Shown here: in pieces, positions 2,685-50,581 of the stretch
Layout of the letters: every line of letters starts with the position of its first letter
Position numbering within the stretch: position 1 is the first letter of the stretch
Translations under genes and position numbers: made by a program
Assembly (NCBI GenBank): GCA_949318235.1
Contig: OX439133.1
Coordinates: 25,967,229 to 26,031,228 of the forward strand
Source of the DNA: Ecdyonurus torrentis
Lineage: Eukaryota > Arthropoda > Insecta > Ephemeroptera > Heptageniidae
Direction: 5' to 3'
DNA: 64,000 bases
The notes under the pieces: generated by a model
Databases searched by the model: none
Told to the model about the DNA's origin: nothing
What the model saw: the letters and a program-made list of their open reading frames with translations, nothing else

Positions 2685-3470
2685 TTACGAGCACTTACGA
2701 AAATGAAGCTTGCAACAGCTCGTTCCAAACAAGAATGGCGCTGGAGACCCTGTGTCAGTTCTTAAATCTATTTCTATCGTTTCAAATTCCTTTCGCAATA
2801 CGTTAACATAATGCGGAGAATCAAAGTAAGAGACCATTTGAGTGCCAAAAACATAATCAGATTTGTCTATGTGAATAATACGTAAAAGTTGAGCAGATGT
2901 ATTGCCAACGAATTGAGGTTCAGTGACGTCACAATACAAATACAATTGATTTGGTATGCCCAATGTGATTGCTGGTTGTCTTTCAGCAACTTGCTCTAGC
3001 ATGAGATTGACATTCATACTAAACCCAAGTTGAAGAGCAAGATTTGGGGACAACATGACTTCCTTAATTTCAAACGAATCAATCATTGAATTATTCTTTT
3101 TCTGACTCGCAGGGATGTTTTTTCTGAGTGGCTGTGTTTTAATTCTTGAATCTTCAATACTGAGTGATAAAAAAAAGCAGATTTCTGGATGATTATTAAT
3201 TTTTTCAACGACATCTACCGCAGAATAATATCCGAGAGGTAGTCTATATTTTTTTAAATTATTTTTACTCCCACCATAATAAATAATATTATTGCTTGAG
3301 TTAATATTTAAAAACGTCCGCGGGTAATGAAACTCGACAACAGCGCATTCCCATTCATCGCCTAAAGATATTCTCTGAGGTAATTGAGTTGTAAAATTTG
3401 TAGTCTTATTGTCTGGAAAAAAGGCCATCGAGCTATTGCTAGGCAGAGTAAGATAGAAATTATCTTTCAT
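2685..3470 (-). CDS. Penton-like minor capsid protein (PX), single jelly-roll
   Basis: 261 residues from the ATG at 3470; the frame continues upstream into the integrase gene, but the start at 3470 matches the family, with MKDNFYLTLPSNSSM at the N-terminus. The protein matches the Polinton minor capsid protein, a single jelly-roll penton thought to form the fivefold vertices. The segment FTTQLPQRISLGDEWECAVV near residues 25-45 and the C-terminal LHFRK are typical. Its ATG overlaps the integrase stop as ATGA at 3467-3470, a virus-like coupling. No stops or frameshifts. Confidence 0.9.
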   Translation of the reverse strand: MKDNFYLTLPSNSSMAFFPDNKTTNFTTQLPQRISLGDEWECAVVEFHYPRTFLNINSSNNIIYYGGSKNNLKKYRLPLGYYSAVDVVEKINNHPEICFFLSLSIEDSRIKTQPLRKNIPASQKKNNSMIDSFEIKEVMLSPNLALQLGFSMNVNLMLEQVAERQPAITLGIPNQLYLYCDVTEPQFVGNTSAQLLRIIHIDKSDYVFGTQMVSYFDSPHYVNVLRKEFETIEIDLRTDTGSPAPFLFGTSCCKLHFRKCS

Positions 3471-4537
3471 AATGTTACGATATCTGAATGACTCACCCAA
3501 GAGTTAAAAGAACTAGGATAACCTTTCCAACTCACGAAATATTTGCGACTGTTCCCTTTGCCTCTTGTACTTATTATTTTATCTAATTTGAATACGCTCT
3601 CTTGGTTGATGCTAACTTTAGTTAATTCTGCTTCATAAAACGTACCTGCGATTGGTTGATTAGCTAAATCCTTTATTTGATAAACGACAGGATTTCTAAA
3701 GAGTATTTTATGAATGATAAATATCTCTTCTGAAAAATTAGTTGCATATCCTTTCTCAAAGACGTTTTTCTCTCTCGAGATTCGAACATGATCTCCGATA
3801 TTGTATTTATGTTTATTGCTAGGCCAGAAGTCATGATTTTTATATAAAGTTTTCCACACTTGCAACACATTATTCTCGTTTACTTTTGAAGGTTCCATTT
3901 TTATAGAAGAATGTACCGAGTTGTTATAACTTTTTATAATGGAAGGTAAAGCATCGACGTAGCGCTCGGTGTTCTTAAACGTGAGATATTTTGACATTTT
4001 TGATTTTATCGTAAGGTTTAATCTCTCTACTATAGAAGCTTTGACATCAGGGTTGTTGGTTGTATAAAACTTAACGTTATGTAAACGAAGGAAATCTTGA
4101 AGTTGTGAGTTTATAAACTCTTTGCCTTTATCTGTGTTTAACGCTCTAGGCTTTCGATTGCTATCTTTGAATATTTTTTTAAACGCGTCCAATATCTCTG
4201 CACTCTTTTTACTGTATAAAGGAATAGCCCATGCAAATTTAGAAAACGTATCAATCACCATTAAGATATAACAAAAACCGTCATTTTTAGATTTTTTTGA
4301 TTTCATGTCCACTAAATCAGCTTGCCAGATATCATCAATGTTATCAACATAAAATCTATTTCGCTCAAACCGTTTACGTTTTCTTTTATGTAGAGTGTAC
4401 GTGTCTTGACTTGTTAGCCATTGTTCAATACGATCGAGTGAATATTTACGATTAGAAGCATTGTAGAGTTTTTTTGCGCTTGAATAGCTCGCAGGTTGAT
4501 TAGTATCATAATAAAGTGTTGTTAGTTCTCTATTCAT
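3467..4537 (-). CDS. Polinton integrase (rve core plus C-terminal chromodomain)
   Basis: 356 residues. The integrase of the retroviral/DDE superfamily cuts and joins element ends to host DNA. A short N-terminal region is followed by the rve core at about 65-225 with the triad intact: Asp74 (WQADLVDM), Asp136 (LNTDKGKEF) and Glu171 (IVERLN), with 34 residues between the last two. Residues 240-310 look like an SH3-like C-terminal domain. Residues 316-356 form a chromodomain (KYFVSWKGYPSSFNSWV), which could steer integration towards modified histone tails. Length and domain order fit the family. The stop overlaps the penton start. No disabling change is seen. Confidence 0.93.
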   Translation of the reverse strand: MNRELTTLYYDTNQPASYSSAKKLYNASNRKYSLDRIEQWLTSQDTYTLHKRKRKRFERNRFYVDNIDDIWQADLVDMKSKKSKNDGFCYILMVIDTFSKFAWAIPLYSKKSAEILDAFKKIFKDSNRKPRALNTDKGKEFINSQLQDFLRLHNVKFYTTNNPDVKASIVERLNLTIKSKMSKYLTFKNTERYVDALPSIIKSYNNSVHSSIKMEPSKVNENNVLQVWKTLYKNHDFWPSNKHKYNIGDHVRISREKNVFEKGYATNFSEEIFIIHKILFRNPVVYQIKDLANQPIAGTFYEAELTKVSINQESVFKLDKIISTRGKGNSRKYFVSWKGYPSSFNSWVSHSDIVTL

Positions 4538-5668: not shown

Positions 5669-6310
5669 CTAATTTTTGTGCTGATAAATCGCTAAATTTT
5701 CGGAAGGAAATATATTTGATCTGAATCTCAAACTATCGTCTGTGTTTTGTTTGAGGTCAAGCAACAAATAACTGTGTGGCTTGGCTGTTGCATCAAAATA
5801 TGCTTCTTGCAAGAAAAGAGGACATTTTGGATACACTTGGCGTGAAAGATAGAAAAATTGTGACATATCGCGGGGCTGTTTAAAGCAGACGATATAAGAT
5901 GCATTGAGAGAAATGTCTCGAGCTCCTTTTCCTTGAAAAAACAAATTTTGTGATATAAATATGACACTTATATTTTTATGATGCGAAAATTTGGTAAATA
6001 TGTCAACAACGGATGAATCAGCTTCACGCATGAGATCGTCTATGATTATGAGACGTGGTAACGGCTCTCCCTTTTCATTTGGAACAATCGAGTCTATTTT
6101 TGGAAGGCCCTCATGAAATTTACATGCATCATGTTTTGCTAATCTGTTGTACAAAGGTTGCCATACTGCATAACACCATATGATTTCCTTAAATTTTGTA
6201 TCACACATATGTTCAACATTATTAAGAAATTTCTCAACAAAAAAACTCTTACCTGAACTACTTGGTCCACAGATTAAAGCGGAGAAGGGATGTTGCCAGC
6301 GAAAATCCAT
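5669..6310 (-). CDS. Genome-packaging ATPase (FtsK/HerA, A32-like)
   Basis: 213 residues. A P-loop ATPase that drives DNA into the capsid in Polintons and related viruses. Walker A is GPSSSGKS at residues 15-22; Walker B is RLIIIDDLM at 86-94 with Asp91-Asp92; a sensor-type SQN lies at 120-122, followed by Arg131 as a candidate arginine finger. Length and motif spacing fit the compact Polinton form. It starts 21 bases after the stop of the PPP1R15-like gene. All catalytic motifs are intact. Confidence 0.92.
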   Translation of the reverse strand: MDFRWQHPFSALICGPSSSGKSFFVEKFLNNVEHMCDTKFKEIIWCYAVWQPLYNRLAKHDACKFHEGLPKIDSIVPNEKGEPLPRLIIIDDLMREADSSVVDIFTKFSHHKNISVIFISQNLFFQGKGARDISLNASYIVCFKQPRDMSQFFYLSRQVYPKCPLFLQEAYFDATAKPHSYLLLDLKQNTDDSLRFRSNIFPSENLAIYQHKN

Positions 6311-6331: not shown

Positions 6332-6643
6332 TTAAATATTTGATTGTTTAGTTTTTGTTAAATTCATTTGGCTAAATTTGTAAGCCAATATTTTTGAATT
6401 CAAAACTCCATGCAAAATTTTTTCACTAGATTTTATTCTATCTTTAAAGCGAATTTCGTCTGCTCTAATGCTATGCCAATTTGACTTTCGATATTCAAGA
6501 ACGTCTTTGCTGTCGTTTAATTTTTGTACAGTAACGCTACCAAATGAAACACTTTTCTTCGTCTTCTTCTTCTTCTTCTTTTCTATCTGCTGCTGCTGCG
6601 TCAGTGAGGAAGACTTTGAACAATGACTATTCATATCTGACAC
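6332..6643 (-). CDS. PPP1R15/GADD34-like protein: putative PP1 adaptor for eIF2alpha dephosphorylation
   Basis: 103 residues between polymerase and ATPase genes. After a Gln/Lys-rich start, residues 30-34 (KSVSF) form an RVxF-type PP1-docking motif, followed by a hydrophobic VTV at 37-39 where a PhiPhi-type motif is expected, then Arg52 and a segment with Trp56, Asp62, Arg65-Phe66 and Arg69-Ile70. The spacing W-x5-D-x2-RF-x2-RI is that of the conserved C-terminal PP1/actin/eIF2alpha-binding region of PPP1R15 (GADD34/CReP), also used by small proteins of some large DNA viruses. Such proteins recruit PP1 to remove phosphate from eIF2alpha and keep translation running under stress. The role is inferred by motif; the frame is complete and a TATA-like sequence lies 39-47 bases upstream. 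Alternative: an unrelated basic protein with a chance match. Confidence 0.68.
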   Translation of the reverse strand: MSDMNSHCSKSSSLTQQQQIEKKKKKKTKKSVSFGSVTVQKLNDSKDVLEYRKSNWHSIRADEIRFKDRIKSSEKILHGVLNSKILAYKFSQMNLTKTKQSNI

Positions 6644-6882: not shown

Positions 6883-9800
6883 TTACAATCTTGTTTTTTT
6901 AACATAACCAAAAGGTACTGTACAATAATCATCAATAACTCTTCGTTTTCTAACGACAAGTTGATGAATTTTAGACTCTTCATGTGTTATTATAGTATGA
7001 TCCTTAAGTCGGCATATTTTATGTGAATCATGTAACACAGTAGGAGGAGCATTGTTAAGAACTTTTAGTTTGAGAGAGTCAAAATTTACAAGTTTTGAAT
7101 TCTTGTAATTTAATGTGAGACCCTTAACTTTGCATACAGTTTTAATATTATTCAAATCACCTCCTACAGCTATTTTATAACTATAGTTTTTAGGTCCACA
7201 GCTTACAAATTCAACTATGAATGATCCCTCTCCATAACATACAACTTCATCAGTCAGCTGACCCAAATAATCTCCATTTGGAGGTACGTACATGTCAGGT
7301 TTCCCCCACCACATTACTGCATCTGTGTCATAATACAAGACACGATCCCCGAGCTTATCTAATACGTCATACAGACGCATTCTTGCAAAAGTTGTAGTAT
7401 AAGCTGCAATCGCAATATTAACAGTTGGAGTCGGGACATACACTTCCTCAACATACTTCCATTGAACTACTAATACATTTTCAGAAGCTTGCTCTATATA
7501 AAATATTTCAATGGATGGATCAAGTAACATTTTAAACAATTCATTTTCATCTTGAATAAATACAGTTTGATTTTTTGAATTTTTTTTCGCCAAATTTTCC
7601 CCATAAGCCACATAAAAGTAATTTTGCGAGTGCTCTTAAACTAGGATTTAACTCGATTAATTCAAGATCAAGATCAATACCTTCATTAATTTTATAATTC
7701 ATTATGTATTCTAGTTTTTCTTCATTAGTCATATCTGGCTTAGGAAATCCAGAAGCCATTTGTTTAATTTTTAAGAAAGTATTCACAAAAGTAGGAAAAA
7801 TTCCCCCCTCTCCAGTAGCTGGATCATATTGAGTAATTTCATATTCTAAAACCTCATAACATTCTAACACTCTATACCCTTTTGAAATTGCAAGATTTAC
7901 CTCATCAATCACATAAGTACCTATGATTGCACGTTCCGATTCCGAATGTTCACAATCATGCTGATATTCCAATTCAGCACAAGAGCGGCAGAGGGGAAAC
8001 ATTAGACGTCCATTAACACGGAAGGGGAGAACGGGATGAAAAAGATCCTGAGGCGGTAATATCCGAAGTTTGACGAACCCATTCAGCTTCTCGAATCCTT
8101 CGCATTCGTCATTGCCAACACGTACGGAAATAGGATGTCCGATTGGATATTTGTCGTACTAAATAAAAATGAAAAGAGATTAATATTTTATCATATTTTG
8201 AAAAACTTATACATTTTTGTTATTCATTATTTACCTTATTAACAGTTCCATATAAAGATGTGAAATCTTTATAAAATATTTTTTCCTCGTTATCTACATC
8301 AGCAAGATGATATAATTTAGAGCAGTTGACACGCCCACCATAGAAGCTGTCTCTGATGTTGAGTGGTTCTTGAAGAACCATAGGATGAGTTTCAACATAG
8401 GCAGCCATCTCTTTATCATGTTTCTTCATGGTTCGAAATACACATTCATGCATTTCAATGAGCTAAAACATACAAAAAATACACAAATAAATATTAGTAT
8501 ATAATAATTAATGAACATACTATTAACATACTATAAATTTTTACATACCTCAAAGCCTCTCTCTATAATTCTTTGATTAAGAAGCAGTGTTCGCTTTTGT
8601 CTCTCATTCAACGTATCTCGAGGGTCGTCAGCTATTGGAACATCACGACCTCCAGGTAAACAGGTGTGACCATGATACCAGCAGCCAGCATATTGAAATA
8701 CCATCTTCTTTTTATCTCCTTCGTAATATCCATCAACCTGCAACATCAATGTAAAAAATATAATGAGTCAGCTTTGTTTTTATTTATATTATGAGGAAAC
8801 GTTATTCAATTATATAAAATGTGTTAAATATTTACCTTTCCACAGCCTGGAAGATGTTTTTCCTTGTCTCTTCCAGCATGTTGAATCTTGATTCCTCTTT
8901 TCTTCTCTTCATAAATCAGCCATTGTATTGCTCCTCGTGATTGATTGTTACAAAACCTATACCCATTTTTTGGCATGATGCCAATCATATTTGTCTGCAT
9001 ATAATTTTGTCTAAACACAGCCATTGCTGCACTAGATATTGTCATACTGTCTAAGAAAGGTTCAATTGTGTTTTCTCTTAAAAAATCACTTCTGAATTTT
9101 AAGCAAGCTAATCTCAGTACAGTGACATCCATTTTACAATACTTAACAATTTCTACCTGCATGTCAAAAACTTCTTTGTTTTTAATTCTCTCATTGTACC
9201 ATTTAAAAAATTCCTCTCTTTCTTTCTCTTTCATCGTGTCACAACCATAATATTTAGCTGCTGGATATATTCCAACATAATGTTTATTTTTCTTTGTATT
9301 GAAAAAGTGAGGAAAATAAGATTTTGATAATTCAGGTGGAAGGCCAAAAGCTTTTGTCATAGCTGACAATGGCATTACAAAGTAAGAGAGTGAGTCAATA
9401 AAATGAACATTAGTTTCTGGAATTTTTAAACTTAAAATCGAATTACCTTGCATAATAACTTCCGGACATATGTTATTATTTACTAAGTGCTTTAACACAA
9501 AATGACCATCATAACCTTTTTGATTATGTGCAATGACGCGCATGTACTTAAAATTATGTTGATAATCTTTAGAAAGCAATAATTCGACAAGCTCATTCAC
9601 AGGATTTTCTGTAAATATTCTCTCTCTTTCTCCGCATGCCTCACATTTTTCGGTACAATCATCATTATAAATACATTTGTAACATGCAGTTTGTACAACA
9701 CACAAGTTAGGTTCATGTTCATATGCTTTTTCATTATAAACTTTGTCTTGTGTACATTCAAGGTCATAAAATACATATAAGAATTTTGTATCAGATGAAA

Positions 9801-9912
9801 ATTTTGACTCATAAGGCTGCATGAAACATTGATGATCATAGGGTTGATAACCTTTACATATTTTACAATAGGTTTCACCACATACAGTAGAGAGCAGATA
9901 AAATGTTAACAA
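6883..9912 (-). pseudogene. Protein-primed DNA polymerase B (PolB), N-terminally truncated, with introns and one frameshift
   Basis: Exons (minus): about 9912-8836, 8737-8549, 8462-8235 and 8158-6883. All three introns (98, 86 and 76 bases) have GT-AG ends and are phase 0. Exon 1 has a CxxC...HxC zinc-like start, then exonuclease motifs ExoI (YDLECTQD), ExoII (AHNQKGYDGHFVL) and ExoIII (KYCKMDVTVL). Exon 3 carries palm motif A (DFTSLY, then Gly instead of the usual Pro). Exon 4 carries a motif B region (LCGLWGKFG, where Asn-Ser is usual) and motif C YYDTDAVMW intact. A run of eight T at 7580-7587 (A on the coding strand) shifts the frame; one base fewer would keep it. The usual N-terminal few hundred residues are absent beyond 9912. 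The role would be element replication. Either a decaying copy, or a homopolymer sequencing error in an otherwise spliced gene. Confidence 0.88.
7580..7587 (-). other. Homopolymer frameshift in polB
   Basis: Eight T on the plus strand. The coding frame before the run (entering from 8158) and the frame after it (to 6883) are each well conserved but differ by one position. Homopolymer length is a common sequencing-error site, so the break may not be real. Confidence 0.7.
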
Positions 9913-9945
9913 AGGAAATATAGCTCCACAAAATTACAATAGCAA

Positions 9946-10406
9946 GGTGTGTCTACTTCTGCATTCTCCGCCTTCTCAGGCTAGTTGTCATTGCAGTGGT
10001 CAACGACATAAATATAAGCACACCTCCTTGACTATGCACATCTTCTCTCTCTCTCTCTTGATTTTGAACTAATTATACCTTCCTATTTCAATATTATTTA
10101 TGTGTATAAATTTTATTATAAGTATGATTATAATTCTTTTACTTGGGTTATACTTCATAAAAGGTATTCTAATTTTTTTATCTGGGGCGCAAACAAAAAT
10201 TCTATATGTTTTTTCACTTGGGGTACATGAAGAACAAAATTTAATTGATTGAATATTTTTCATTAGTAATACGGTATTATATTTTACTTGGGTGATGCTT
10301 TGAAAAATTTTCATCTGGGATCCTACGGTCTTATATTTTTTATAGTATAGGTCTCCTTCATTCTTTTTTTTTTATTTTATTAATTTTTTATTTATCTAGA
10401 CACACC
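9946..10406. repeat. Possible small inverted-repeat element at the Polinton right edge
   Basis: GGTGTGTCTA at 9946-9955 and its exact inverse TAGACACACC at 10397-10406 bracket about 460 bases with no gene. I see no convincing target duplication, so this could be the remains of a small transposon or chance. The stretch also holds a (CT)n run at 10040-10060. Confidence 0.3.
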
Positions 10407-10429
10407 GGTAGTTTACAGTAACATAACCT

Positions 10430-10690
10430 AGAGTCAGCGCCATGTTGGATCACTCAATATCGTGGATGATGATGGAAAATAATTCAATTCCTCAGATTAA
10501 AAACACGATGTAATATTTTTGATACCATTCATAAAGCAAAAAAATCTTGACATGGTACCTCAAGTATGTGATAAACATAAAAATTTCAAATAAAAAGTTA
10601 CAGATTTTCTAATAAAATTGCCTTGAATATTGTTTGTATTATGCTGAACAATGTTATTTACTACTCCAGTATGGCGTTCGGGCGCATTGA
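10430..10690 (+). mobile_element. Degraded copy of the GGGTGTATGC inverted-repeat MITE (family M)
   Basis: The stretch from GCGCCATGTTGGATCACTCAA to ACTCCAGTATGGCGTTCGGG matches the body of the family that recurs in the introns to the right (for example 27421-27719), but both terminal repeats are missing. Confidence 0.65.
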
Positions 10691-10699
10691 ATAGGACAG

Positions 10700-11150
10700 T
10701 GTATTTTATAGCTATCCATATGTTTCTATAAATTAGTATTTTTTTAAGGCAATGTATTGTTTTCTATTTAAAAATAATATATTAAAATTATCTTATGTAA
10801 TTTTTTATTAAAGCAATAAGTTAAATTTTGTTTGATCATTTGCATAAGCTCATTATAATTTCAAAAATTTAAATTTACTCTTGTTTTTTCCTGCCTTTAA
10901 TATTTTATGTTATATATTTAAATATTATATTTATTTTTATTAGCCTAAATATTGAACTAGTATTTAATATTTTTTTTAAAAAATTAACCTACATAATTCT
11001 ATATAATAAATTTTGTTTACTTAAACCTAAATAATTTATTCTAATAGATATTTTTTTTTTGTTATTTTATTATTGTTTTCTTATAATAAAAAGGAAATGC
11101 TTAAGATACTATAAATAAAAACACAAAACATAAAATTCAGGTGTCAAAAA
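10700..11150. other. AT-rich intergenic DNA
   Basis: Very AT-rich sequence with short homopolymers. I see no gene, repeat or regulatory feature I can support. Confidence 0.5.
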
Positions 11151-11157
11151 AGCAATA

Positions 11158-11163
11158 TTTTTA
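11158..11163 (-). terminator. Poly(A) signal of the 108-residue gene
   Basis: AATAAA on the minus strand, 18 bases past the stop codon at 11181. Its position fits a short 3-prime UTR. Confidence 0.65.
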
Positions 11164-11180
11164 TTCAAATATTACATATT

Positions 11181-11507
11181 TTAATTATCAGCTGCACTGA
11201 ACGTAATTTTGGTTGAATTGCCTTGCTGGCCGTGAGATGTGAGGGTAAGACGTGTGCCTCCGTTGTTGTATTCAGCACACTGCTGGGGGGTTGTAGAATC
11301 TACGACGTACTTGGGCAAAAAAGTCATGAAGAGAGGGGATTGGGGATTTTCACGTAGGAAAACAATGATTGAGGGGTTCTTGTATTGTCTCGGCTGAAGA
11401 TAAATCATCTTGGTGATCAGGAGAGGGACACCAACAGGCGTGTTTTTCAACGCACGGGGGGTAGCTTCCTCCATTTGCGGGGCTTGCAAGTTCTGGAAGT
11501 GGGCCAT
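11181..11507 (-). CDS. Small spliced gene of unknown function (108 residues)
   Basis: The coding exon is preceded by a 5-prime noncoding exon ending at 12190. The intron runs 12189-11511 with GTAAGT donor and a pyrimidine-rich TTTGTTTAAG acceptor, so translation should start at ATG 11507 (MAHFQNLQ...). The protein begins with a Pro-rich patch, has LLITKMIYLQPRQYKNPSII and FMTFLPKYVV in the middle and a polar Gly/Thr/Ser-rich end. No signal peptide, membrane segment or known domain is recognised. Base composition is more GC-rich than its surroundings, as expected of real coding DNA. An AATAAA lies just past the stop. The gene stands head to head with the one at 12474. It could belong to a mobile element, since it lies next to the Polinton, but I have no direct sign of that. 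Confidence 0.72.
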   Translation of the reverse strand: MAHFQNLQAPQMEEATPRALKNTPVGVPLLITKMIYLQPRQYKNPSIIVFLRENPQSPLFMTFLPKYVVDSTTPQQCAEYNNGGTRLTLTSHGQQGNSTKITFSAADN

Positions 11508-11559
11508 AACCTTAAACAAAAGAAAAAAAATGACGTTAATATTTTTGTATCAAAAAATA

Positions 11560-11960
11560 AAAATTTAAATATATACAGTATTATAATAACTAGGTATAAA
11601 TTAAAAACTAGTTATAGCTAATATATCTTATAAAAAACTCAATATGCATTTTTTATATAAATATATACTCAAAAATTTGAAAGAAACATTTTTTATTTCA
11701 AGTTGTCAAATAAATAAATTTCGCATTACTATATTGTTTTAAAACTATTTTTTTATAACATAAAATTTTCACATAATAACTAGGTACAAATTAAAAACTA
11801 GTTATAACTAATATATCTTATAAAAAAGTCATTATGCATTTTTAATATAAATATATACTCAAAAATTTAAAATAAACATTTTTTATTTCAAGTTGTGAAA
11901 TAAAGAAATTTCGCATTACTATATTGCTTTAAAACTATTTTTTATAACTTAAAATTTTCA
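11560..11960. repeat. Tandem duplication of about 185 bases in the intron
   Basis: The stretch 11588-11770 (AACTAGGTATAAATTAAAAACTAG onwards) is repeated with few changes at 11778-11955. It lies in the intron of the 108-residue gene. Confidence 0.7.
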
Positions 11961-12031
11961 TATGTGCAAGTACACAACAAAATTAAAAATTGGAATTAAC
12001 TGAAAATTTTATTATACAACACTGCAGAAAA

Positions 12032-12186
<155 letters not shown>

Positions 12187-12189
12187 TAC

Positions 12190-12310
12190 GATTTATTTGA
12201 TGCAAATTTCTGCTTCAAGACGAAACACAACAACGTAACACAAAATCACAGCTGATTGCTAGCAAAAAGTTAAAGAGCACTTGTTTTTCTGTGAAGAGCT
12301 GCTGATTGAT
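12190..12310 (-). promoter_or_regulatory. Noncoding first exon of the 108-residue gene
   Basis: The exon ends at 12190 before GTAAGT. The start near 12310 is inferred from the TATA box at 12337-12344. It has no ATG-led frame that continues into exon 2, so it should be 5-prime UTR. Confidence 0.55.
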
Positions 12311-12336
12311 AATTAGGGAAGGCGGGGGATGATGAG

Positions 12337-12344
12337 TTTTTATA
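12337..12344 (-). promoter_or_regulatory. TATA box of the 108-residue gene
   Basis: The minus strand reads TATAAAAA, a consensus TATA box placed about 30 bases upstream of the inferred transcription start and about 150 bases upstream of the splice donor. It lies in the 130-base space between this gene and the divergent gene at 12474. Confidence 0.65.
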
Positions 12345-12473
12345 CTTACATTGCAGTCAGGTATACCACACTTACCTGGAAGGGTTGTCACCAATTTTTT
12401 TCATGTGCTTTTTTTAGTATTTTAACAATTACGATCCGAAGTGAAATAAAAAATAATTGCTCTAATATAAACA

Positions 12474-12952
12474 ATGGATAGTGAAAATAATTTCAGCAAA
12501 CCATGTAACATCGTGAATATGATAAACAGCCGTCAAACTGGTCTGTGTGCTATTAAAAAGGTAGATAATCAAAATTTTATTTAATCACTTACTCATATAT
12601 AATAATAAAAATATTATATAATAGAAAAATAAAAATATAATTTACTTAAGATTTTTAAAGTTATTCATTTACTGTATACGTTTGCCCTAGAAAATATTTT
12701 TAGATTTTAAAAATATATATTTTCTTACAGCAAACGTCATCATTGCATACTTTTTGCAATCAAGAAGGCATGAATAATGAGTGGCTTGAAACAAAAATCA
12801 CTTGGACCAGTCGTGCTAACCAATCTTCAAAGCCCAAGGAAACTACCGTCAAGAAAATTTGTGGTCCAGACAGTGAGAAATATGCTAGTTTTTTTACATC
12901 CCCTGTTGTTCATGAATCCAATTTTTTGTATCTTGGAGATATTTGGCATTAA
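12474..12952 (+). CDS. Small two-exon gene of unknown function (102 residues)
   Basis: Exon 1 12474-12560 (29 codons) and exon 2 12731-12952; the intron has GTAGAT donor and TTCTTACAG acceptor, phase 0. An in-frame TAA lies two codons upstream of the ATG, which fixes the start if this is the first coding exon. The product is polar, with three Trp and an ending FLYLGDIWH; no signal peptide, membrane segment or known domain is recognised. An AATAAA follows at about 12970. It is transcribed away from the 108-residue gene, so the two may share a bidirectional promoter. It could also be the end of a longer gene or a fragment. Confidence 0.55.
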
Positions 12953-13100
12953 ACAATCATAATTAATGAATAAATGCATGTTCATGACGTATTATATGAT
13001 TCATGTTTCATTTATATTTACATATACCTCCTAATTTTTATTATAAAAATTACATAACTATATAAAAATATGATATACTATATTATAATAATAGTATAAA

Positions 13101-13402
13101 ATTTCTAATGTTGGTAGCTTTGTTTTTAATTACTCATTTAGGGGTCAATATTTTAAAAAAAAAATCTTTGTTGTATTGGTTATAGTATTGAATGTAATGA
13201 TTCATTCAATACTATATACCAAAACACAAGTTCATACATGTTCGTATTACCTTTGTCATTTCTAATGTTGTAGCTTTGCTTTTAATTACTCATTTAGGGG
13301 TCAATATTTTAAAAAAAAAATCTTTGTTGTATTGGTTATAGTATTGAATGTAATGATTCATTCAATACTATATACCAAAACACAAGTTCATACATGTTCG
13401 TA
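13101..13402. repeat. Direct tandem duplication of about 145 bases with internal inverted repeat
   Basis: The block at about 13104-13245 is repeated at about 13259-13402 with few changes. Each copy contains GTATTGAATG...CATTCAATAC, a hairpin. No gene. Confidence 0.8.
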
Positions 13403-13904
13403 TCACCTTTGTCCTCCATAGCTATGAAAAAACGCATGTGAACAAGTTCAAACACGCTCGTGTGCAGGGATATCTCACCTTTTTTAATCCTTCGTGTAAT
13501 AGGATTAAAGTCAATGAAGCGTAATTTCCTACCTTTTTTTATTTTATATATAATGACGTATAATATTATACGCAAAATATTTATTTTTATTTATGCTGGT
13601 TACTTGAAATCAACCTGTATCACATTTTTATACACCCCCCCTTTTTTTTTTCAATTATCAATTTGCATTGCATTTTATTTATTGCATAGTATAATATGCG
13701 TCAAAACATTTATTTAGCCTTGCGTACGTGTGCAAAGTTTTTAATTGATAAGATCTTTTCCTTTAATTCATGAAAAAAACACTCGCAGAAGAGTGCAATT
13801 AAAATGACAACATGTCAAAAAAAATTTGACAGGTCCATTAATGCACCTGTCAATCATTCTCTTAATGACGGCCGCCATCTTGGTCTATCATACCATTATT
13901 ACTA

Positions 13905-13947
<43 letters not shown>

Positions 13948-14599: not shown

Positions 14600-50581
<35,982 letters not shown>

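Follow-up and report, generated by a model that had tools for sequence, protein, structure and literature searches.

A PPP1R15-like gene between polB and ATPase in Polintons of Ecdyonurus torrentis

In a Polinton of Ecdyonurus torrentis we found a small intact gene whose product, the adapter, is to judge from its sequence homologous to PPP1R15, the host protein that turns protein synthesis back on after stress, and probably works alike. We think it likely that the adapter recruits PP1 to phosphorylated eIF2alpha. The gene and its motifs occupy the following positions of the window, by which we mean the whole analysed stretch of 64,000 nucleotides.

6332..6634, minus strand: PPP1R15-like PP1 adapter gene, 100 aa from the ATG (103 codons from the GTG at 6643)
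6542..6556, minus strand: RVxF-type PP1 docking motif K30-S-V-S-F34, whose K, V and F are the same in all 11 aligned copies
6527..6535, minus strand: V37-T38-V39, putatively the phi-phi-like strand by position, read from the sequence and from the second short strand of a single-sequence model
6434..6490, minus strand: R52-I70, counterpart of the start of the PPP1R15 eIF2alpha/actin-binding helix, with R52, W56, D62, R65, F66, R69 and I70 (with the motif defined as PMC5346070 quotes it)
6401..6415, minus strand: L77-H-G-V-L81, aligned with the LSAVL motif of DP71L, the DP71L alignment being gap-free in this stretch

In the window translation, the adapter ORF (6332-6643) forms one long open frame, as the first-pass annotation had claimed; it lies on the minus strand, a strand that the annotation had not named, and the one plus-strand frame translated over these positions contains several stops. 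The ATG at 6634 is a likelier start than the GTG, since the same ATG occurs in L025 (L numbers denote loci) and MN stands at that alignment column in L015-L019. The residues named in the annotation, K30, V32, F34, V37-T38-V39, R52, W56, D62, R65, F66, R69 and I70, are all where it placed them. A core pattern written after the family was seen (basic-V-x-F ... R ... D-x-x-R-F-x-x-[RKLV]-[IVC]) occurred in none of 200,000 shuffles of the adapter protein and in one of the window's 181 stop-to-stop segments of at least 60 aa, namely the adapter itself. The motif arrangement is not due to chance.

The place claimed for the gene was also right: polB (6883-9912) and the ATPase (5669-6310) flank it, in an element with these features:

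5669..6310, minus strand: packaging ATPase (A32-like), Pox_A32 E 1.5e-4 and 21.8 bits, just below the cut-off of 22.8; 538 homologues
6883..9912, minus strand: polB, broken into ORFs 6883-7611, 7547-8002 and 8824-9912; DNA_pol_B_2 1.1e-24
3467..4537, minus strand: integrase with rve (4.3e-15) and chromodomain, frame intact
2685..3500, minus strand: putative minor capsid protein, 72-95% identical in L015-L019 and L025
808..2127, minus strand: putative major capsid protein, 83-96% identical over whatever parts are present in L016, L018, L019 and L025
1..306, minus strand: N-terminal portion of a cysteine-protease-like gene cut off by the window edge, with 70% identity over 102 aa to L030:7696-8229
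13822..13945, plus strand: probably the right-hand terminal inverted repeat of the element in the window, partly AT repeat, with a 97.6% inverted match of 124 bp to L029:6079-6201

The two capsid labels are our assumption, guided by position; in Pfam and PHROGs the minor ORF matched no family and the major ORF no capsid entry. The relative of the protease-like gene, L030:7696-8229, weakly resembles Peptidase_C48/C5, below the cut-offs. The few ATPase homologues that bear a species name come from Aquatica, Athalia, Neodiprion and Temnothorax. An AT repeat borders the terminal repeat of the window copy and blurs any target-site duplication there; a sister copy of about 15.8 kb (L030+L019+L031) has terminal inverted repeats of 553 bp at 99.6% identity, with AACATC on both outer sides. 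A 149-aa Polinton protein at 311-760, with a 67% identical copy in L030, was also seen in the window. Outside the Polinton, an inverted repeat that is almost perfect, its arms being 93-100% complementary, takes up positions 15482-20873, about 5.4 kb altogether.

Where the annotation described an intact Polinton gene, the adapter frame is indeed intact, but the element copy itself is damaged: the polB frames are broken, and nothing matches the first 480 or so polB residues of the relatives. The missing N-terminal part would be expected at 9912-13822, a stretch that does not match the relatives and in which that part seems lost or replaced; probable terminal repeats remain on both sides. In L015-L019, each gene from the 156-aa neighbor of the putative capsid gene to polB has a full or cut-length open frame (the L016 stretch begins inside polB, and the L017 stretch ends inside the 156-aa ORF). 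Even in these loci polB consists of two or three ORFs. The polB ORFs lie about 0.86 kb apart at L018:6382-7245, and the gap recurs at the same place in L015-L017 and L019; with GT at the first break in L018, it is possibly an intron.

We located the adapter gene at 19 places in the 503-Mb genome from which the window comes. Eight of these are Polintons of the window's own clade as judged from tblastn context (the window, L012, L015-L019 and L025), and in all eight the gene lies between polB and ATPase. The annotation had proposed looking for the same gene in other Polintons, and it was thus recovered at the same site in eight loci of this clade, within this genome. Nine further places, in eight loci (L009 twice, L010, L011 and L020-L024), belong to a second, polB-like element in which the adapter stands beside a BIR gene, and the remaining two (L013 and L014) lie near IAP genes. 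ATPase identity reached at least 72% in eight loci (eight rows, plus a 52% row inside L025), each of which carries the adapter. Altogether, the genome holds 53 ATPase matches, of which 35 are stop-free over the matched part and several score equally, pointing to many, partly recent, Polinton insertions. The other 44 ATPase rows had no adapter match within 300 kb when coordinates were compared by eye; with ATPases only 37-59% identical there, a diverged adapter would escape the search.

For comparison among copies, we aligned 11 of the 19 places. Left out were L009 (twice), L010, L011 and L012, which contain stops, L016 and L018, which encode the same proteins as L015 and L017, and L022, where the frame is open but the start is missing. 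Ten residues are invariant in all 11 rows: K30, V32, F34, Y51, R52, D62, R65, F66, L81 and K84; M4 is invariant too, owing to how the rows were cut. Trp56 varies more, being W in three rows (the window, L025 and L014), F in four, Y in one and S in three. The expectation that relatives would keep the F, W and RF residues therefore holds for V-x-F and RF, in 11 of 11 rows, but for the tryptophan in three only.

The divergence between copies suggests a gene under constraint. Between L015 and L017, the adapter has a dS of 0.137 and a dN of 0.039, giving a dN/dS of 0.28. Between the window and L015, its dN is 0.66 at a dS of 1.54, near saturation, whereas dN for this pair is 0.09 in the ATPase and about 0.15 in the integrase. 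The adapter thus seems constrained, yet several times faster-evolving than its neighbors, and such speed would resemble that of genes facing the host. Since its dS between L015 and L017 exceeds that of the ATPase (0.016) and of the integrase (0.069), some sequence exchange among copies may contribute to it as well. Changes were too few for a selection estimate between the window and L025 (one silent and three replacement changes), and for the pairs L017-L019, L020-L021, L020-L023, L020-L024 and L021-L023.

These data bear on whether the frame is a gene at all. A frame that stayed open by chance in a decaying element could be suspected in a copy whose polB is broken and partly missing, all the more as six of the 19 matched stretches contain a stop, although that in L013 is the gene's own terminal stop. 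Yet the other 13 stretches are stop-free, the frame is open in six of the seven other Polinton loci, and it stays open, with its invariant columns, between distinct elements that share only 31-41% adapter identity. Together with the dN/dS for L015 and L017, this makes a chance frame scarcely credible.

The second element extends the gene beyond Polintons of this clade. Its L020 copy, of about 12.3 kb (L020:1919-9901 with L033:1-4303; G000:C1), has Polinton-like ends with AGTAG, inverted repeats of 324 bp that are 87% identical, and a 6-bp duplication, AATACT, flanking it on either side; further copies are L010, L011 and L021-L024, and a decayed one is L009. Besides the adapter, it carries a polB-like ORF, an ORF of 253 aa and a gene for a 245-aa protein in which a BIR domain is recognized (E 9.1e-16); this last gene is present in all eight loci of the element. 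No capsid, ATPase or integrase ORF was recognized in the L020 copy. The view that the element's 840-aa protein is unrelated to polB was dropped after we read YGDTD and N-x-x-F-G-K-type motifs in it by eye, which we take to be polB motifs. We label it only polB-like, because its blastp match to Polinton polB is at best 0.006, in Pfam and PHROGs only an endonuclease-VII part is named (besides one weak FliS match in Pfam), and PDB gave no match. By eye, the window's 149-aa protein resembles the part of the 245-aa protein that precedes the BIR domain; tblastn with the 245-aa protein did not match the window at E of at most 1e-3. In the two IAP-linked loci, the adapters (L013 4776-4982 and L014 4582-4869) lie 1.4 and 2.8 kb from three-BIR genes. 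The L013 three-BIR gene includes a RING, and an IS1595-like transposase ORF stands 0.1 kb from the adapter; a BIR-like ORF was seen at L014:2216-3307 and another, by eye, in L036.

The relationship to PPP1R15 emerged from the family more clearly than from the single protein. Alone, the window protein matched PF10488 (PP1c_bdg) with an E of 0.0063 and 16.7 bits, under the cut-off of 26.1, this being its sole Pfam match at E of at most 1. Among the 11 aligned members, PF10488 was seen in five at E of at most 10 (best E 0.0046), and four other families matched one to three members each (best E 0.026). Similarly, a PDB search with the window protein alone placed DP71L on top at a non-significant E of 0.026, with unrelated chains close behind (0.041-0.074). 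With the 11-member profile, the three best of 177,635 PDB sequences were DP71L of ASFV (5.5e-7) and PPP1R15B (0.0016 and 0.0021); PPP1R15A chains in the same search had E values of 0.23 and 0.25, behind two unrelated chains (0.16 and 0.21).

The host's own PPP1R15 exon provided a further comparison. It lies at L026 (G000:C17:3329911-3330084; PF10488 32.6 bits, over the cut-off) and begins VHF, directly behind a splice-acceptor-like TTGCAG; taken from VHF on, it lacks the basic residue and hence does not match our core pattern. A genome-wide PF10488 search returned this exon alone and none of the 19 adapter copies. The profile of our alignment gave the exon 38.7 bits, whereas none of 20,000 shuffles exceeded 13.8 bits (the search returned scores for 18,981 of the 20,001 sequences), and the window protein, in phmmer, gave 21.2 bits compared with 10.5. 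Among sub-group profiles, the Polinton-only one scored 31.9 bits, that of the two IAP-linked copies, L013 with L014, 29.5 bits and that of the second element 8.9 bits. The profile check that the annotation had called for thus failed for the single protein, which is below the Pfam cut-off, and succeeded for the family profile, in its best three PDB matches and on the host exon. The spacing, described there as exactly that of the PPP1R15 C-terminal domain, agrees with the published eIF2alpha-binding consensus at eight of its ten specified positions and departs from it at S54 and E63. That strict consensus (Rojas et al. 2015, in the form quoted in an excerpt of PMC5346070) is matched by the host exon and by none of the 11 members. 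With the Pfam score and the strict motif as they are, we do not file the adapter as a strict PF10488 member, the cut-off being a threshold and not a biological feature.

A skeptical reading would make the adapter a general RVxF protein, for example a factor of DNA packaging or of the virion with a PP1 motif, that came to resemble PPP1R15 by convergence. According to a passage of PMC7615683, the RVxF motif is common to most PP1 non-catalytic subunits; the N-terminus of the adapter is, moreover, basic and lysine-rich, and the single-protein scores are marginal. However, the family profile puts PPP1R15-type chains first in PDB and covers residues 1-67 of the 72-residue host exon, past the motif, and the gene also occurs in an element with no recognized capsid ORF. 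We consider convergence very improbable.

Homologues outside this genome did not appear in our searches. None was found at E of at most 10 in a set of 5.8 billion proteins, reached by shared 5-residue words only (59 candidates for the window protein alone, 1494 for the 11-row alignment). PHROGs had no match for the window adapter protein, and viral_contigs none for the adapter alignment, the ATPase, the ATPase alignment, the integrase or two neighbors of L014/L013.

We then mapped the adapter onto human PPP1R15A, in which, as described in sections of PMC8500838, R587, D588, R591 and R594 contact eIF2alpha, F592 and R595 contact actin, and W582 lies on PP1 and is called invariant and important for dephosphorylation. 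Setting W582 on W56 pairs R587 with A61, D588 with D62, R591 with R65, F592 with F66, R594 with D68 and R595 with R69, so that four of these six helix contacts are kept and two eIF2alpha contacts are changed (the map covers these six; R612 is a further actin contact). In DP71L, passages of PMC5346070 report V16 and F18 of the motif as critical for PP1 and the LSAVL stretch as needed. An AlphaFold single-sequence model of the adapter (mean pLDDT 80.7, pTM 0.42) predicts one short strand at the docking motif and another just behind it, followed by a single helix that runs to the end, with block-mean pLDDT of 93-98 over most of the helix; as a monomer, the model is silent on partners.

The changed contacts raise the question of substrate. 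A true PPP1R15-derived adapter might have been retargeted, docking PP1 and either directing it to another substrate or sequestering it. This would suit the loss of Trp56 in eight of 11 rows, the replacement of the R587 and R594 counterparts by A61 and D68, and the speed of the protein, whose window-L015 dN was given above. On the other hand, all 11 rows keep D62, R65, F66 and L81, which correspond to residues that known members use for eIF2alpha, actin or activity, and the window protein itself retains Trp56. Overall, we regard retargeting as unlikely, albeit the most serious of the alternatives.

We therefore return to recruitment of PP1 to phosphorylated eIF2alpha as the preferred reading. 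In this mechanism, the K-x-V-x-F motif and the following strand would dock on host PP1c, and the long helix, with the face formed by R52, D62, R65, F66 and R69 and steadied by G-actin, would hold the beta-barrel of eIF2alpha. PP1 would then remove the phosphate on Ser51 of eIF2alpha, and translation could go on despite active host eIF2alpha kinases during expression of the element's genes for capsid and replication. This would benefit the element, which may behave as a virus. The BIR gene beside the adapter in the second element is in line with a gene set directed against host responses.

Polintons are thought to be integrated viruses, and to our knowledge an extracellular stage has hardly been seen. 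Part of PMC7805220 states that no such stage had been detected. A gene whose viral relatives undo host translation shut-off would provide indirect evidence for this stage and a handle for testing it. More tentatively, insect Polintons and a polB-like element that looks capsid-less may carry and exchange anti-host genes, namely a PPP1R15-like switch that sustains translation, joined in the second element by a BIR/IAP-type gene against apoptosis, a proposal that we see as almost evenly poised, leaning slightly against. If it is true, these elements pass through a productive phase during which they are selected against by eIF2alpha kinases and by apoptosis; commonly classed as transposons, they would then be living as viruses in present-day insects. 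The diverged natural variants, with and without the "invariant" tryptophan, can also show what the eIF2alpha holophosphatase needs.

We found no Polinton with PPP1R15 or GADD34 in the open-licence literature, which is weak evidence of novelty; the portions of that literature pairing Polintons with eIF2 had giant viruses and a sea anemone as their topics. The closest known protein is the short form of ASFV DP71L, which the adapter resembles as a small stand-alone protein with RVxF, an RF helix and an LSAVL-type end. The adapter differs from it in several ways: the F of RVxF and the Trp stand four residues further apart, the family has an invariant YR in place of the ER of DP71L, the Trp is not preceded by G-P, the N-terminus is longer, and the carrier is a Polinton. 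With PPP1R15A/GADD34, PPP1R15B/CReP and the host exon, it shares a PP1 motif, behind it R...W...D..RF..RI, and then a tail that contains leucine. In the host PPP1R15 core, unlike in the adapter, G precedes the Trp and R takes the place of E63, and mammalian PPP1R15 has a long N-terminal part with a membrane domain, and repeats in PPP1R15A (from a section of PMC4394352).

Capture of PPP1R15 by insect DNA elements has precedents in large DNA viruses, among them coGV, which we take to be a granulovirus. Its gp036 is named a PPP1R15 homologue in an excerpt of PMC4394352, and DP71L, ICP34.5 and avipox homologues appear as viral PPP1R15-type proteins in parts of PMC5346070 and PMC8301327, the latter reporting that canarypox protein 231 rescues yeast from PKR toxicity. 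PPP1R15A homologues are described as common to entomopoxviruses and baculoviruses, with a lepidopteran origin given, in passages of PMC4411684 and PMC5704228. The adapter is likened to these by description. The carrier here is a Polinton, and capture of PPP1R15, so far a matter of large DNA viruses, thereby reaches an element of about 16 kb. In other respects the element is like Polinton/Maverick, with terminal inverted repeats, AGT/ACT ends, a 6-bp target-site duplication, polB, integrase, ATPase, and protease-like and putative capsid genes; to these this clade adds a PPP1R15-like gene between polB and ATPase.
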